Shown: one piece after another, positions 2,809 through 8,266 of the stretch
Position numbering within the stretch: the first letter of the stretch is position 1
How the letters are laid out: each line of letters opens with the position of its first letter
Assembly: GCA_013335275.1 (NCBI GenBank)
Contig: JAAXVX010000053.1
Location: 1 to 8,266, forward strand
Reading direction: 5' to 3'
Source: Bacteroidales bacterium
GTDB lineage: Bacteria > Bacteroidota > Bacteroidia > Bacteroidales > UBA932
DNA: 8,266 nucleotides
Position numbers and translations under genes: made by a program
The notes under the pieces: model-generated
The model's input: only the letters and a program-made list of their open reading frames with translations
What the model was told of the DNA's origin: nothing
The model's database searches: none

Positions 2809-3681
2809 TTATTTTTTTGGACGGAACAGTAATATGGCATTTGCCACCTTTCTTTCCCCCTTATTGTCGAATAATTTGTTGTCGGTTGGATGATTGACAA
2901 CTCCGTTGTCGGAATATCCTTCGATATACATCGTAGTGGAACCGCCCCCGTCAAGATTGATTATATCGGAAGCTCCCATCCATCTTAATATACTCTGGAG
3001 CTCTTTGATTGATACGCCGTTTGATTTTTCGTTTCTTCCGTCAATGGTAACCAGCATTATTGTTCCGTCACCCCTTTTTGCAATTGCCGTTCTTGGGTGC
3101 CTGGTTGTGTAGAAAGAGGAACCGGAAAGTTTTTCGTCAACTCCTCCCACGCGAAGAATAGGACCGGTAGTTAAAACATCCTGCGCCTGAATATATTTCT
3201 CCCACTCCTTTATTTCGTCTGCTTTAATTATATACAGCTCCTTGTTGTAGAAAGCAAGGGCACCAAGCTGATGCATAGATCTTTGCTTGTTTACTATTGT
3301 ATTGGGAGCCAGGTTTTTCCCGTTCTTTCGGATATAATCTACAGAGTTATAGTCTTCGGTATTGTAATTATAGTTGAACTTAAAGAAAGATCCGTTTATT
3401 GCTGCCAGAGCACCGTTTTCGGCTGCCATTTTACTGGTCTCTTTCAGAACCGGACTTGGAAACAGTTCAAGAGTTGCCCCGGATGATTTTCCGATTTCAA
3501 TAATGGAAATATACTGGTTTGATTCAAACAACTCTTTGTTTTCAAAATGAATAAACTTGTAAATAACGCCGGTTGCAATTGTACTTTCTTTCCACTTGCC
3601 ATTTACGAGAGTTATTGAGTCGTTTTGGGAGTATCCTGCAAAAGAGGATGCAAGAAACAGTACAATAAAAAATTTTTTCAT
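2809..3681 (-). CDS. Secreted phosphodiester glycosidase, NAGPA/DUF2233 family
   Basis: This 290-residue protein matches the NAGPA domain (phosphodiester glycosidase, formerly DUF2233). The founding member, the mammalian uncovering enzyme, removes N-acetylglucosamine from a sugar-phosphodiester. Bacterial members are thought to cut related glycosyl phosphodiesters. The family signature blocks are present: AAINGSFF (93-100), TTGPILRVGG (171-180), HPRTAIAKRGDG (195-206) leading to VTIDGR (211-216), and INLDGGGSTTMYIEG (241-255), with the closing ERKVANAILL near 276-285. The chosen start at 3681 gives MKKFFIVLFLASSFAGYSQ, a signal peptide likely cut after Ser18, so the enzyme acts in the periplasm or at the surface. 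An ATG 48 bases further upstream would overlap the preceding gene and bury the signal peptide. It sits 1 base after the Na/Pi symporter stop and abuts the GT4 gene. Substrate unknown. Confidence 0.9.
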   Translation of the reverse strand: MKKFFIVLFLASSFAGYSQNDSITLVNGKWKESTIATGVIYKFIHFENKELFESNQYISIIEIGKSSGATLELFPSPVLKETSKMAAENGALAAINGSFFKFNYNYNTEDYNSVDYIRKNGKNLAPNTIVNKQRSMHQLGALAFYNKELYIIKADEIKEWEKYIQAQDVLTTGPILRVGGVDEKLSGSSFYTTRHPRTAIAKRGDGTIMLVTIDGRNEKSNGVSIKELQSILRWMGASDIINLDGGGSTTMYIEGYSDNGVVNHPTDNKLFDNKGERKVANAILLFRPKK

Positions 3682-3682
3682 T

Positions 3683-5368
3683 TTATTGAATTTCAATAAT
3701 TGCTTCTGAAACATTAATGATATAGTCACCGGTCATTTCACATTCGGCAACAACATCCATATAGTAGACACCTGTCTGGTAGTTGTATTTGTTATGCTCA
3801 AGGCTTAGAAGGTGCTCTTCTTTAAGAATGTTCCGGTACTCGTTTATCTCTTCCTCAGAGTCTACAGCTTTTGATATTCCTTCAATTTTTGTATATCCTT
3901 TATCCAGATTTTCAATCATATTGTCAAATGCCTTTTCAAGGATTACAAACATATGATCAAGCTTGTTAACCATGTCCGGGGTAAAGCTCTTTCCGTGTAT
4001 CTTTTTTCGATTGAGGATTCTGGCAATATTGTATCCGGAATCTCCTATACTCTCAATTTCACTGATTATAGTATACATTGCCTGAAGTCTTCTTGCACTC
4101 TCTTCGCTCAGTTGTCCTTCGGCAACATTGTTGAGGTAATTTGCAATCTCCAGTTCTACCTTGTCTGTTATTTGCTCATAATGCTCAAGCTTATTGTAAA
4201 GTTCTTCAAACTTATCCGTTTCACATACTTTCAGTGCCTCCCGGGCATAAACAAACTGCTGTTTGCTAAGTTTTGCAAAATCTACGATTTCGTATTTTGC
4301 CTGACTAAGGGATAGTTCGGCAGTACTTAAGACACCGCCCTGAATGTACTTAAGCCGAAACACCTCTTCGGCATCTTTAGACTTGATAACCTTGGTTACT
4401 AATTTCACTATTTGTGGTGTAAACCATACTAAAATAAGTGTGTTAGTTGTGTTGAAAAGAGTATGCAGGAATGATATCCCGTATAATATAGCCTCGGAGT
4501 TTGTATATGGGTCAATAGAGAAAACGGCTATTGTTATTTTGGCAACGACAAACATAACCGGCTTGTAAAGCGTGAGAACCCAGATTACCCCGAAAACATT
4601 GAAAACAGTATGCGCCAGTGCCGCTCGCCGGGCCGAGACATTAGCTACGGCGGCAGCAATATTTGCAGTTATTGTTGTTCCGATATTTTCCCCAAGTACC
4701 ATTGCAGCGGCCAGTTCGAAAGGAATCCATCCGTAGCTTGCCATAACAAGAGTAAGAGCCATTGTTGCACTAGAAGACTGCATAATCATTGTGAGGATAG
4801 TACCAATAAGCACAAATATCAATACTGAGCCGAAACCATAATTTGTCCATTGCTGTAAAAAGGCGAATATTTCGGGATTTGCCTTAAGGTCGGGAACAGA
4901 ATCTTTCAGAAAAGTAAGACCAAGGAAAAGCAGAGCAAATCCAATCACGAATTCTCCCATCGACTTTTTCTTCTTGGATTTGAACATCATCAAAACAAAT
5001 CCAACTCCCACTAATGGGATTGAAAACATGGAGATGTCAAATTTGAACCCAAGCAAAGATATAATCCATGCTGTGACTGTTGTTCCGATGTTTGCTCCCA
5101 TAATAACCCCGACGGATTGTGTGAGAGTGAGCAAACCGGCGTTTACAAAACTCACAACCATAACCGTAGTTGCACTGGAAGACTGAATAATTGATGTAAT
5201 GAAAAGCCCGGTTAAAACTCTTTTAAAAGAGTTTGAAGTCATCGCAGCAAGAACATTGCGCATCTTCTCTCCGGCAACCTTTTGCAGCCCTTCGCTCATA
5301 AGAGTCATGCCATAGAGAAAAAGGCCGATAGATCCGAGGAGTTTTAAAACCTGAAATACAATATCCAT
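3683..5368 (-). CDS. Na+/phosphate symporter with C-terminal PhoU-like domain
   Basis: This 561-residue inner-membrane protein belongs to the Na/Pi cotransporter family (PF02690, NptA/YjbB-like) and is expected to move inorganic phosphate with sodium. The two inverted transport repeats are plain: QSSSATT (62-68) with GANIGTT (91-97), and QSSSATM (197-203) with GENIGTT (226-232). The serine-rich and GxNIGTT motifs form the substrate site. Further membrane helices run to about residue 325 (FLHTLFNTTNTLILVWF). From about 350 to the end the protein is soluble and helical and resembles PhoU, with repeated E/D-rich helices such as IISEIESIGDSGYNIARI; PhoU-like tails are common in this family and may regulate transport. 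The start at 5368 gives MDIVFQVLKLLGSIGLFLYG, which agrees with the usual N-terminus; the alternative ATG at 5410 adds 14 atypical residues and lies upstream of the likely transcription start. It is the first gene of the operon with the NAGPA and GT4 genes. Direction (import or export) cannot be read from sequence. Confidence 0.95.
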   Translation of the reverse strand: MDIVFQVLKLLGSIGLFLYGMTLMSEGLQKVAGEKMRNVLAAMTSNSFKRVLTGLFITSIIQSSSATTVMVVSFVNAGLLTLTQSVGVIMGANIGTTVTAWIISLLGFKFDISMFSIPLVGVGFVLMMFKSKKKKSMGEFVIGFALLFLGLTFLKDSVPDLKANPEIFAFLQQWTNYGFGSVLIFVLIGTILTMIMQSSSATMALTLVMASYGWIPFELAAAMVLGENIGTTITANIAAAVANVSARRAALAHTVFNVFGVIWVLTLYKPVMFVVAKITIAVFSIDPYTNSEAILYGISFLHTLFNTTNTLILVWFTPQIVKLVTKVIKSKDAEEVFRLKYIQGGVLSTAELSLSQAKYEIVDFAKLSKQQFVYAREALKVCETDKFEELYNKLEHYEQITDKVELEIANYLNNVAEGQLSEESARRLQAMYTIISEIESIGDSGYNIARILNRKKIHGKSFTPDMVNKLDHMFVILEKAFDNMIENLDKGYTKIEGISKAVDSEEEINEYRNILKEEHLLSLEHNKYNYQTGVYYMDVVAECEMTGDYIINVSEAIIEIQ

Positions 5369-5396
5369 GTTGATAATTATATATGATATGCGGCAA

Positions 5397-5404
5397 CAAA
5401 TATA
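5397..5404 (-). promoter_or_regulatory. -7 element for the Na/Pi-NAGPA-GT4 operon
   Basis: On the minus strand this reads TATATTTG, a perfect match to the Bacteroidetes TAnnTTTG element. It lies 28 bases upstream of the chosen ATG, so transcription should start near 5389-5391 and leave a leader of about 20 bases with no Shine-Dalgarno. The expected -33 position (around 5424-5426) reads GCG rather than TTG, so the promoter may need an activator or be weak. Confidence 0.6.
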
Positions 5405-5417
5405 ATTCATAAATTGT

Positions 5418-5444: not shown

Positions 5445-8266
5445 ATGAACCGTAAATTAACGATTCTTGTTTCATTTTTGCTGATTTTACTCTCTGTTAA
5501 TACATCTTTTGCTCAATATTACTCATCCGGAAGTGATCCGGCGCGGGCAGAATGGCGGTATATTAAAACAGAATGGTACGATATTATTTATCCGCGGGAA
5601 GTAGATTCTCTTGCAAGAAGATATGCATTAATTCTCGAATCTTCCAGAGATGCCGTTAACCTTCCGCTGAGAGCCAAACCCAGGCGGATTCCTGTAGTGC
5701 TCCACCCGTACAGTGTTATGAGTAATGGTCTGGTTTCCTGGGCACCAAAAAGAGCAGAATTCATTACCCGTCCTCCTTCAATCGGCAGCTATTCTCAAAA
5801 CTGGGAGAAACAACTCGTAATACACGAAAGCAGGCACATTGCTCAAATGACAAAATTTGAAAGGGGTGTTTTCAAACCTTTGTCGTGGTTAATTGGTGAG
5901 CAGGCACAAGGTATTGGGGCCGGAATTTTTATAAACAAATGGGCTCTTGAAGGCGATGCTGTTGTATCAGAAACGGAATTGTCCTTCTCCGGACGGGGAA
6001 GAGACCCTCTGCATCTGGTATATTACAAAGCGGCTTTTTTGGAAGGAGATTACAGAAATTATCCACAATGGGCGTTCGGCTCATACAAAAAGTACACTCC
6101 GGACGAATATAGCCTTGGATATCTGATAAATTCTTCAATCCGGTTCCGGACATCCAAATATGATTTCATGGGGGAGCTGACAGAAAGCCTCGTTAATAAT
6201 TTTTACAATCCAAGAAACGCTTCAATATCATACAAGAAGGTAACCGGGGAAAAAATTGCAGGAAATTTAGAGGAGACAACCCAGTTGATGGTTCGTCACT
6301 GGAGAACGGAAGATTCTTTAAGAGCCCCGTTCACCGGCATAAAAGAGATTACAGGCAATAAAAATGAATATATATCTTACCGCTCGGCGATAATTCTTTC
6401 CAGAGATACAATTTTTGCAGTCAAAAGTGACTTGAACGAAACGAACCGCCTGATAAAAATAAACAGTTCGGGAGAAGAGGAGACAATCTCATTTTTAGGC
6501 ATTTTGAGCAGTGAATTGTCTTTTTGTAACGGCAAAATTTACTGGACAGAACAGATTCCTGCTCTGAGATGGGAACAAGAGAGCTTTTCCGATTTAATGG
6601 AATATGATATAAAAAGGGGAAAAATCAGACGACTTACAAATGGGTTGTCTGTTTTCAACCCGGTCGTATCAGCCTCCGGGCAGACGATAATTGCCGCGGA
6701 ATACCCTGTAACTGGTTCTTCCAGCCTTGTTCTTCTAGATGTAGAAAATGGCAACATTATCAAGAGATTCCGGGCACCTCATAACGGGCAGATTAAAGAA
6801 TCGGTTCAGATTGGGCAGATAATCTACTCGACTGTAATTACAGAAAACGGATTGGGAATATTTAAAATTGAACCGGATAAGGGGGTGTGGGAGCGTGAAG
6901 TTGACGAACAACACCAGAACATTACAAGACTTAGCCGCTTTAAAGAGAGCCTGCTTTTCGAAAGCGATATGGAAGGAGTGAACGAACTTTTCGAGTACGA
7001 CCCTCAGATAAAAATTCTGCGGCGTCTCACAAATTCGCCACTCGCGGCAATATCGCCTTTCTACTTTGCAGCAGAAGATGCTCTCTATTATTCCAATTTT
7101 TCCAAAACCGGATTTGGCCTGGTGTCTGTACCCGCCGACTCGCTGGAGTGGAAATTTGCATACTTTTCAAAACCGCACAGATATTTCCTTGCAGATGAAA
7201 TATCAAATCAGGCGAATTTTAATATTGATACAATCTCTTTTGCCGGAGTAGATAAATTTGCTTCAAGGCCATATCAGAAAGGCGACCATCTTTTCCGCAT
7301 TCATTCGTGGATGCCTGTATATTTTAACATTGACAACCTTAAAAATGTATCCTACGATAATTTCTATGAACTTGTTTCCCCCGGAGCAACTGTATATTCA
7401 CAGAATTCGCTTGGTACGGCTACTTCTATGCTTGGATATTCATACCATAACGGTTTTCATACGGGTCATGCAAAGTTTACATACAGCGGGCTCTATCCCG
7501 TTTTTGAGATAGAGGCAGATTATAACGACAGATTCAGGCAAAAAATAAGACTTATATCCGAAGATCCGTTTCACCCGGTTATGGTGGCTGATACAATAGC
7601 GGGTTCTCCTGTTTTTAACGCCTCGGTATTGGTCTATCTCCCATTTAATTTAAACAGGGGCGGATGGGTGCGCGGGATAATTCCAAGACTTGCCTGGCGT
7701 TATTCGACAGACTCCTATTATTCTCTTGAAAAAAGGAAATATCTCGATTATCAGCATTATGTGCTGGGAATACAGTATTATCAGATGCTCAGAATGACCA
7801 ACAGAAATATTTTCCCGAAATGGGGTTATGGGGTTAATGTCCAGTATAATTCCATGCCTTTTTCCGGTGAAAATTTCGGTTCAACTTTTTATGCAAATGT
7901 ATATTCTTATGTTCCGGGCCTTCTCAAGAATCAGGGATTAAAAATTTCAGCTGCCTTTCAGAGGCAGATATACAATGGCAAGAAATATCTTATGAAAAAC
8001 ATAGCTCCTTCTCCAAGAGGCTATGATACACATTTCAGCATAACTTATGCATCGGTATTTACAGATTATGCAATTCCGGTGAACCTTGGAAACGCTACTC
8101 TTTCCTGGCTCCTTTACCTTAAACGGGTACAGATTATTCCTTTTTTTGACTGGGCATACAGTCATGGAATGGACAGAAACAGACACATGATTTCGGGAGG
8201 AAGCGATATTCTGGTCGATTTCAATATTTTTAATATCTCACTGCCTCTTACGGCGGGAGTGAGGTA
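5445..8266 (+). CDS. Secreted metallopeptidase-like / beta-propeller / outer-membrane barrel protein (3' end missing)
   Basis: The frame stays open from ATG 5445 to the right edge: 940 full codons plus two bases, no stop. A signal peptide (MNRKLTILVSF to SFA, cut before Gln24) sends it across the inner membrane. About 30-250 resembles the peptidase MA (gluzincin) group: HESRH at 127-131 fits the zinc motif HEXXH, and WALEGDAVVSE (166-176) supplies the third zinc ligand, probably E169, in the usual EGxAxxxE form. About 310-590 resembles TolB/PD40 propeller blades, for example LMEYDIKRGKIRRLTNG (384-400) and LFEYDPQIKILRRLTNSP (515-532). From about 655 on, alternating polar and aromatic strands separated by turns (for example LGYSYHNGFHTGHAKFTYSG) look like an outer-membrane beta-barrel related to the D15/surface-antigen type. 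The role is unknown; a surface-anchored protease or a protein involved in outer-membrane assembly or uptake is possible. It is divergent from the phosphate operon. The gene call is firm; the barrel assignment is less certain. Confidence 0.85.
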   Translation, partial: MNRKLTILVSFLLILLSVNTSFAQYYSSGSDPARAEWRYIKTEWYDIIYPREVDSLARRYALILESSRDAVNLPLRAKPRRIPVVLHPYSVMSNGLVSWAPKRAEFITRPPSIGSYSQNWEKQLVIHESRHIAQMTKFERGVFKPLSWLIGEQAQGIGAGIFINKWALEGDAVVSETELSFSGRGRDPLHLVYYKAAFLEGDYRNYPQWAFGSYKKYTPDEYSLGYLINSSIRFRTSKYDFMGELTESLVNNFYNPRNASISYKKVTGEKIAGNLEETTQLMVRHWRTEDSLRAPFTGIKEITGNKNEYISYRSAIILSRDTIFAVKSDLNETNRLIKINSSGEEETISFLGILSSELSFCNGKIYWTEQIPALRWEQESFSDLMEYDIKRGKIRRLTNGLSVFNPVVSASGQTIIAAEYPVTGSSSLVLLDVENGNIIKRFRAPHNGQIKESVQIGQIIYSTVITENGLGIFKIEPDKGVWEREVDEQHQNITRLSRFKESLLFESDMEGVNELFEYDPQIKILRRLTNSPLAAISPFYFAAEDALYYSNFSKTGFGLVSVPADSLEWKFAYFSKPHRYFLADEISNQANFNIDTISFAGVDKFASRPYQKGDHLFRIHSWMPVYFNIDNLKNVSYDNFYELVSPGATVYSQNSLGTATSMLGYSYHNGFHTGHAKFTYSGLYPVFEIEADYNDRFRQKIRLISEDPFHPVMVADTIAGSPVFNASVLVYLPFNLNRGGWVRGIIPRLAWRYSTDSYYSLEKRKYLDYQHYVLGIQYYQMLRMTNRNIFPKWGYGVNVQYNSMPFSGENFGSTFYANVYSYVPGLLKNQGLKISAAFQRQIYNGKKYLMKNIAPSPRGYDTHFSITYASVFTDYAIPVNLGNATLSWLLYLKRVQIIPFFDWAYSHGMDRNRHMISGGSDILVDFNIFNISLPLTAGVR

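Follow-up and report, generated by a model that had tools for sequence, protein, structure and literature searches.

We analyzed a stretch of 8,266 nucleotides from a Bacteroidales bacterium (contig JAAXVX010000053.1 of assembly GCA_013335275.1), referred to below as the window, and focused on the gene with which it ends. On the forward strand, a single open reading frame (5445-8264, 940 amino acids) is free of stop codons up to the end of the window, which is also the end of the contig (G000:C295). On the basis of structure models, we are highly confident that the predicted product joins a peptidase-type domain, a TolB-type propeller, and an Omp85-type barrel in one chain. The features of the gene, all on the plus strand, are as follows.

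5445..8264 (+): visible reading frame, residues 1-940 (full length about 960), truncated by the end of the contig
5445..5513 (+): signal peptide predicted from reading of the sequence, residues 1-23 (SFA/Q), cleavage site without cysteine; model helix 3-17
5514..6326 (+): predicted gluzincin-type peptidase domain, residues 24-294
5823..5837 (+): HESRH, residues 127-131, within model helix 120-139
5949..5972 (+): EGDAVVSE, residues 169-176, within model helix 165-178; Glu169 is the candidate third zinc ligand, and Glu176 ends the motif
6327..7169 (+): predicted TolB-like propeller with six blades, residues 295-575; its strands fall between 310 and 572
7170..7289 (+): short linker without a POTRA domain in the model, residues 576-615
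7290..8264 (+): predicted Omp85-type barrel of 16 strands, the last of them past the window end; residues 616-940
8013..8024 (+): PRGY, residues 857-860, loop L6 (strands 11-12), core of the first lid-lock motif
8064..8066 (+): Asp874 on strand 12, top statistical partner of Arg858
8142..8156 (+): FFDWA, residues 900-904, strand 13, with the F-x-D core of the second lid-lock motif

The nearest relatives (P0001 to P0004) are 959-960 amino acids long, and about 20 C-terminal residues, including the last strand, therefore lie outside the window. P0001 (960 amino acids, 97% identity in a protein homology search) is encoded with 100% identity at locus L023 of the metagenome genome Bacteroidetes bacterium CTSoil_029; because its alignment with the window protein is free of gaps to the contig end, the two share residue numbering. 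The protein search, in which 7,997 candidates were scored, gave at least 137 homologues at E ≤ 1e-3, and the alignment covered 96-100% of the query in 117 of the 120 homologues listed; thus, a chance open reading frame was excluded. The 118 relatives counted below are the aligned set from these 120, with P0011 and P0090 omitted as likely partial. An artefact of assembly or frame was also rejected, as the layout is identical across the 118 relatives.

In the structure model (mean predicted local distance difference test score 91.5), strands of a six-bladed TolB-type propeller span residues 310-572 and sixteen barrel strands span residues 619-956; TolB was the nearest structure to the propeller in the fold search. 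A preliminary description made from the DNA letters alone had reported an uninterrupted frame of at least 940 codons with a signal peptide, an HEXXH motif, the propeller-like sequence RRLTN, and a long strand-rich C-terminal region. All of these recur in our analysis (RRLTN occurs twice, and the signal peptide is our own reading), and the models support its view that a peptidase-type domain, a propeller, and a predicted outer-membrane barrel are joined in one polypeptide. Neither of its two refuting tests, on a propeller fold at residues 310-590 and on a barrel after residue 650, spoke against it in the models.

Family databases placed little of the protein. The window protein matched nothing in Pfam or NCBIfam at E ≤ 1, and a weak PD40 match was seen in three of 27 aligned sequences. 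A sequence search of solved structures returned nothing relevant for the whole protein, the barrel, or the peptidase profile. The precomputed assignment PF26549 is carried by 40 of the 120 homologues listed, and P0122, among the 120 listed in another search, also carries PF26550; part of the protein may already be named as PF26549 in a newer Pfam release. A separate gene of the same genome (L013:2609-5698, plus strand) encodes a propeller together with an S41 tricorn-type protease and is the source of a weak propeller match.

We propose, with a probability of roughly 0.55, that the gene encodes a zinc peptidase anchored to the outer membrane by its own predicted Omp85-type barrel and facing the periplasm, where it would cut envelope proteins.

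The barrel and its lid-lock motifs

Omp85 proteins are builders of the outer membrane. Sixteen barrel strands were found in two models, and all 50 rows listed in a Foldseek search with the barrel were Omp85/TpsB proteins or SAM complexes. The published Omp85 signature comprises two motifs, (V/I)RG(Y/F), which forms the tip of loop L6, and (F/G)xDxG, which belongs to strand 13; an Arg-Asp salt bridge between them serves as a lid lock (PMC4490367). In the window protein, PRGY lies between model strands 11 and 12, the position of L6, and FFDWA is part of strand 13. Of the published motifs, the V/I and last Gly are missing, and Pro and Ala stand in their places. The same Pro precedes RG in 116 of the 118 relatives, and the final residue of the second motif is Ala in 69 and Gly in nine. 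RG[YF] occupies positions 858-860 in 76 relatives and occurs in each of the other 14 loops in at most 10, and [FY]xD is found on strand 13 in 80. The distance from RG to the C-terminus is mostly 102-109 residues, compared with 108-114 in six proteins of related genomes that we read as BamA-like.

Arg858 and Asp902 are both present in 86 relatives, both missing from 21, and present singly in 11. Because shared ancestry inflates such an association, it was ranked against other columns. Among 336 columns, Asp874 on strand 12 came first in association with Arg858 and Asp902 came second, and the 858-902 pair was eighth of 57,630 barrel pairs by corrected mutual information (all 118 rows). The association persisted among 59 rows of less than 60% identity (42, 8, and 9; p 1.6e-4), where Asp902 ranked fourth of 315 columns and 874 was again first. 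In BamA, the L6 arginine also touches an acidic residue of strand 12, although one paper searched for the residues concerned does not name them.

Several results weigh against an Omp85 assignment. PF01103 matched two genes in the genome of the window, the window gene not among them, and none of 88 barrel rows at E ≤ 10. Comparison by hhalign with the BamA/TamL proteins of the relatives (30 loci, of which 25 formed a large set and four a small set, L120 being removed as a fragment) was non-significant and no better than that with control barrels, the PF14905 control scoring no lower than the Omp85 sets; an LptD profile, considered as a further control, matched none of nine genomes. Among 20 loci at a greater distance, only 13 had RG[YFLVM] past residue 750, and among the nine of these from outside Bacteroidales only four had it. 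A POTRA domain is absent, and the gap between propeller and barrel is a linker of 40 residues in the model. Since support from PF01103, hhalign, and POTRA domains is lacking, we assign the barrel to the Omp85 type from its predicted fold and the core of the signature, without counting the protein among the classical Omp85 members.

The barrel might itself be a working Omp85 insertase or translocase for which the propeller and peptidase prepare clients, in a chaperone-like manner or by maturation, with assembly as the main job. This explanation is favored by the lid-lock cores and their coupling, which most of the 118 relatives retain, and by the account, in a 2024 paper on PlpD, that the Omp85 proteins studied before PlpD all assemble or move proteins (PMC11116518). 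However, near-invariant columns are more frequent in the peptidase domain (29 of 271) than in the barrel (21 of 345; none of 281 in the propeller), 21 relatives have lost both Arg858 and Asp902, and POTRA domains are missing, and we consider it unlikely. Another reading, a self-contained foldase-protease, would combine a working lid lock with a propeller and peptidase that replace the POTRA array, so that one chain recognizes, inserts or rejects, and cuts its clients, with an active and a dead copy paired in one Bacteroidales lineage; this we regard as quite speculative and improbable.

The peptidase-type domain and its tandem copies

Gluzincin zinc peptidases contain HExxH plus a downstream Glu ligand in E-G-x-A. 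In the structure model of our protein, the HExxH and EG.A motifs both lie in helices, and none of the 118 relatives deviates at H127, E128, H131, E169, or E176. The pattern HE..H-(36-44)-EG.A...E fits 117 of them, the exception being P0041 with ESDA, and HExRH and EGDA...E were kept in all 20 further loci from a family-model search, nine of which lie outside Bacteroidales. Peptidase_MA_2 (PF13485) had no match in the window protein or its genome, and propeller rows occupied the list in fold searches with the whole model, so that absent peptidase rows carry no weight.

The domain was also compared with a second family that has HExxH and a propeller (the L017-type family). The alignment spanned 229 columns with a probability of 87 and an E value of 3.8e-6 (reversed controls, 0.1); when the motif columns were masked, the register was unchanged and the probability went down to 2.5, and with L162 included in the set it was 80. 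Against L162 and L163, which are above the Peptidase_MA_2 cut-off, the L017-type family gave a probability of 84.8 and the peptidase domain one of 4.0, near its reversed controls of 2.1 and 1.8. L017-type members match Peptidase_MA_2 weakly, with a best E value of 1.5e-6 that is below the cut-off. The gluzincin assignment is thus good for the motifs and indirect for families. As judged from its sequence, the N-terminal domain probably has zinc peptidase activity.

The L017-type family resembles the window protein in genus, length, propeller match, and a head with HExxH and EGxAxxxE, but is a separate family with a longer motif spacing. Its members L017 (781-3729, minus strand), L164, L166, and L170 are about 985 amino acids long with a strand-rich-looking C-terminus, possibly with the same layout, and L017 had no Pfam match at E ≤ 0.1.

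At five Bacteroidales loci (L082, L083, L090, L091, and L098), a tandem copy, 988-1005 amino acids long, comes after the main gene; a sixth such locus, L096, is partial. H127, E128, H131, and E176 are lost in all five tandem copies and E169 in four, whereas the adjacent main copies keep all catalytic residues. The tandem copies keep the propeller, the barrel, the RG of L6, Asp874, and the strand-13 Asp. The same pair as that of L082 is carried by L182 (G257), where the two frames, measured from stop to stop, share 23 bases and the genes thus lie nearly end to end. Second copies found elsewhere in three genomes (G056, G345, and G274) retain the catalytic residues.

Since the tandem copies have lost these residues and kept the rest, the residues seem dispensable for the fold and the remainder of the protein, and their retention in the main copies therefore argues for catalysis. 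This bears on the alternative that the domain is non-catalytic, in which the metal bound by HExRH and EGDA would have a structural task or help to recognize a ligand in a binding or tethering outer-membrane protein. No activity is known for the domain, no Pfam peptidase family matches it above cut-off, and five species have kept copies that lack most of the residues, all of which would suit such a role; the strict invariance of the five residues and a fold that seems independent of them speak against it, and we judge it decidedly improbable. The active and inactive pair resembles, at the level of sequence, couples of enzyme and pseudo-enzyme, and the inactive copy may be a partner of the adjacent active one in these species.

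Proposed function and related systems

Under the peptidase reading, the signal peptide would export the protein and the barrel would insert with both ends in the periplasm. A periplasmic position of the head is very probable in our view, because the number of strands is even and, by analogy, the N-terminal enzyme domain of PlpD is located in the periplasm (PMC11116518). The propeller may dock clients and so bring in envelope proteins, and the peptidase would bind zinc and cut these proteins near the membrane, the two domains together occupying the place of the POTRA domains of BamA. Display of the N-terminal domains on the cell surface, which they would reach by way of the barrel or alongside it, has been described for patatin-Omp85 and considered for Metallo-Omp85 (PMC4104836) and was once proposed for PlpD. 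It is hardly credible here, as later work located the PlpD domain exclusively in the periplasm (PMC11116518) and a 16-stranded barrel would need to let a head of some 550 residues across.

As a working model, the protein would exert a control like that of BepA where outer-membrane proteins are assembled, by trimming or clearing envelope proteins; such a specific role in envelope protein control is put forward tentatively. BepA is alike in this proposed role only, as a zinc peptidase at the assembly site, but is a periplasmic M48 and TPR protein that acts at BAM (PMC8423444); it has no barrel and is not shown to share a family with the window protein. The preliminary description had envisaged a self-contained system in which the propeller is a docking platform and the protein processes or secretes envelope proteins; docking and processing may apply, and secretion is the less likely part.

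PF00149 comprises phosphoesterases, and its Pfam name is Metallophos. A 2014 survey of Omp85 proteins states that Metallo-Omp85 bears a metalloprotease domain, PF00149 (Heinz & Lithgow, 2014; PMC4104836); the "Metallo" label thus traces to the Pfam family named Metallophos and does not fit the window protein, which, although it likewise has a predicted N-terminal metal-enzyme domain preceding an Omp85-type barrel, has HExxH and no PF00149 match. The same survey lists WD40-Omp85, a TolB-like propeller ahead of an Omp85 barrel, as an architecture without POTRA domains and compares it to a BamA-BamB fusion; its accessible account mentions no peptidase in this cluster (PMC4104836). The window protein differs in adding a peptidase-type domain before the propeller and in a barrel that PF01103 misses. 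The survey gives no tested function for the WD40 and "metalloprotease" subfamilies (PMC4104836), and the PlpD paper of 2024 still calls them poorly characterized (PMC11116518). PlpD itself likewise places an enzyme domain ahead of its Omp85 barrel, but combines a patatin domain with one POTRA (PMC11116518) where the window protein has a peptidase-type domain and a propeller without POTRA. TolB (PDB 2hqs and others) is a soluble periplasmic Tol-Pal protein (PMC4104836) and has neither peptidase nor barrel.

Term searches of the accessible text of two 2025 papers on Bacteroidota BAM structures did not find a protein of peptidase, propeller, and barrel; the propeller subunit BamI in one of these papers is described along with the extracellular part. 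No description of a peptidase, propeller, and Omp85 barrel combination was found in the literature searched, where most hits were judged from their listing entries and most subscription papers were outside coverage. The preliminary description had known of no characterized member with this order of domains, a statement that has to give way to the WD40-Omp85 fusions of 2014 as regards propeller and barrel and holds for the peptidase head, which was not found in the accessible account (PMC4104836).

If the proposal is right, this would be a genuine protease-bearing Omp85-type protein, POTRA domains would be replaceable by a propeller and an enzyme, and the natural pairs of active and inactive copies would be ready-made controls. 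The family is testable, since it is mostly present as one gene per Bacteroidales genome and occurs in cultured Chitinophaga.

Distribution and genomic surroundings

Within Bacteroidales, 92 of 149 genomes had a match at E ≤ 1e-40, mostly in single copy. In the phylum, 95 of 198 genomes matched at E ≤ 1e-15, many rows being mainly propeller matches, and 33 genomes besides that of the window matched at E ≤ 1e-30 as read from the table. Relatives reach Chitinophaga and Thermoflavifilum, where the source names are "TolB-like translocation protein," "TolB family protein," "PD40 domain-containing protein," and hypothetical protein.

The gene is preceded in the window by genes for a VTT-domain (DedA-type) protein, two glycosyltransferases, NAGPA, and an Na/Pi cotransporter that faces away from it.

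2809-3729 (-): NAGPA phosphodiester glycosidase (E 1.5e-33), adjoining the Na/Pi cotransporter
3683-5410 (-): Na/Pi cotransporter with a PhoU domain; the listed frame overlaps the NAGPA frame

Neighbors were counted at 80 named loci kept out of at least 564 confirmed; most of their names are what we take the proteins to be from their sequences. The Na/Pi transporter family is the commonest neighbor (40 of 80), followed by a lipoprotein-like family of 325 amino acids (39) and a uvrC-like family (38). The neighbors suggest no substrate, and we draw no functional partner from them. A PnuC-type transporter lies downstream of the gene in the relative L021, and the lipoprotein-like upstream neighbor (for example at L061 and L101) has about 325-353 amino acids, begins like a lipoprotein, and contains a C-x-x-C stretch.
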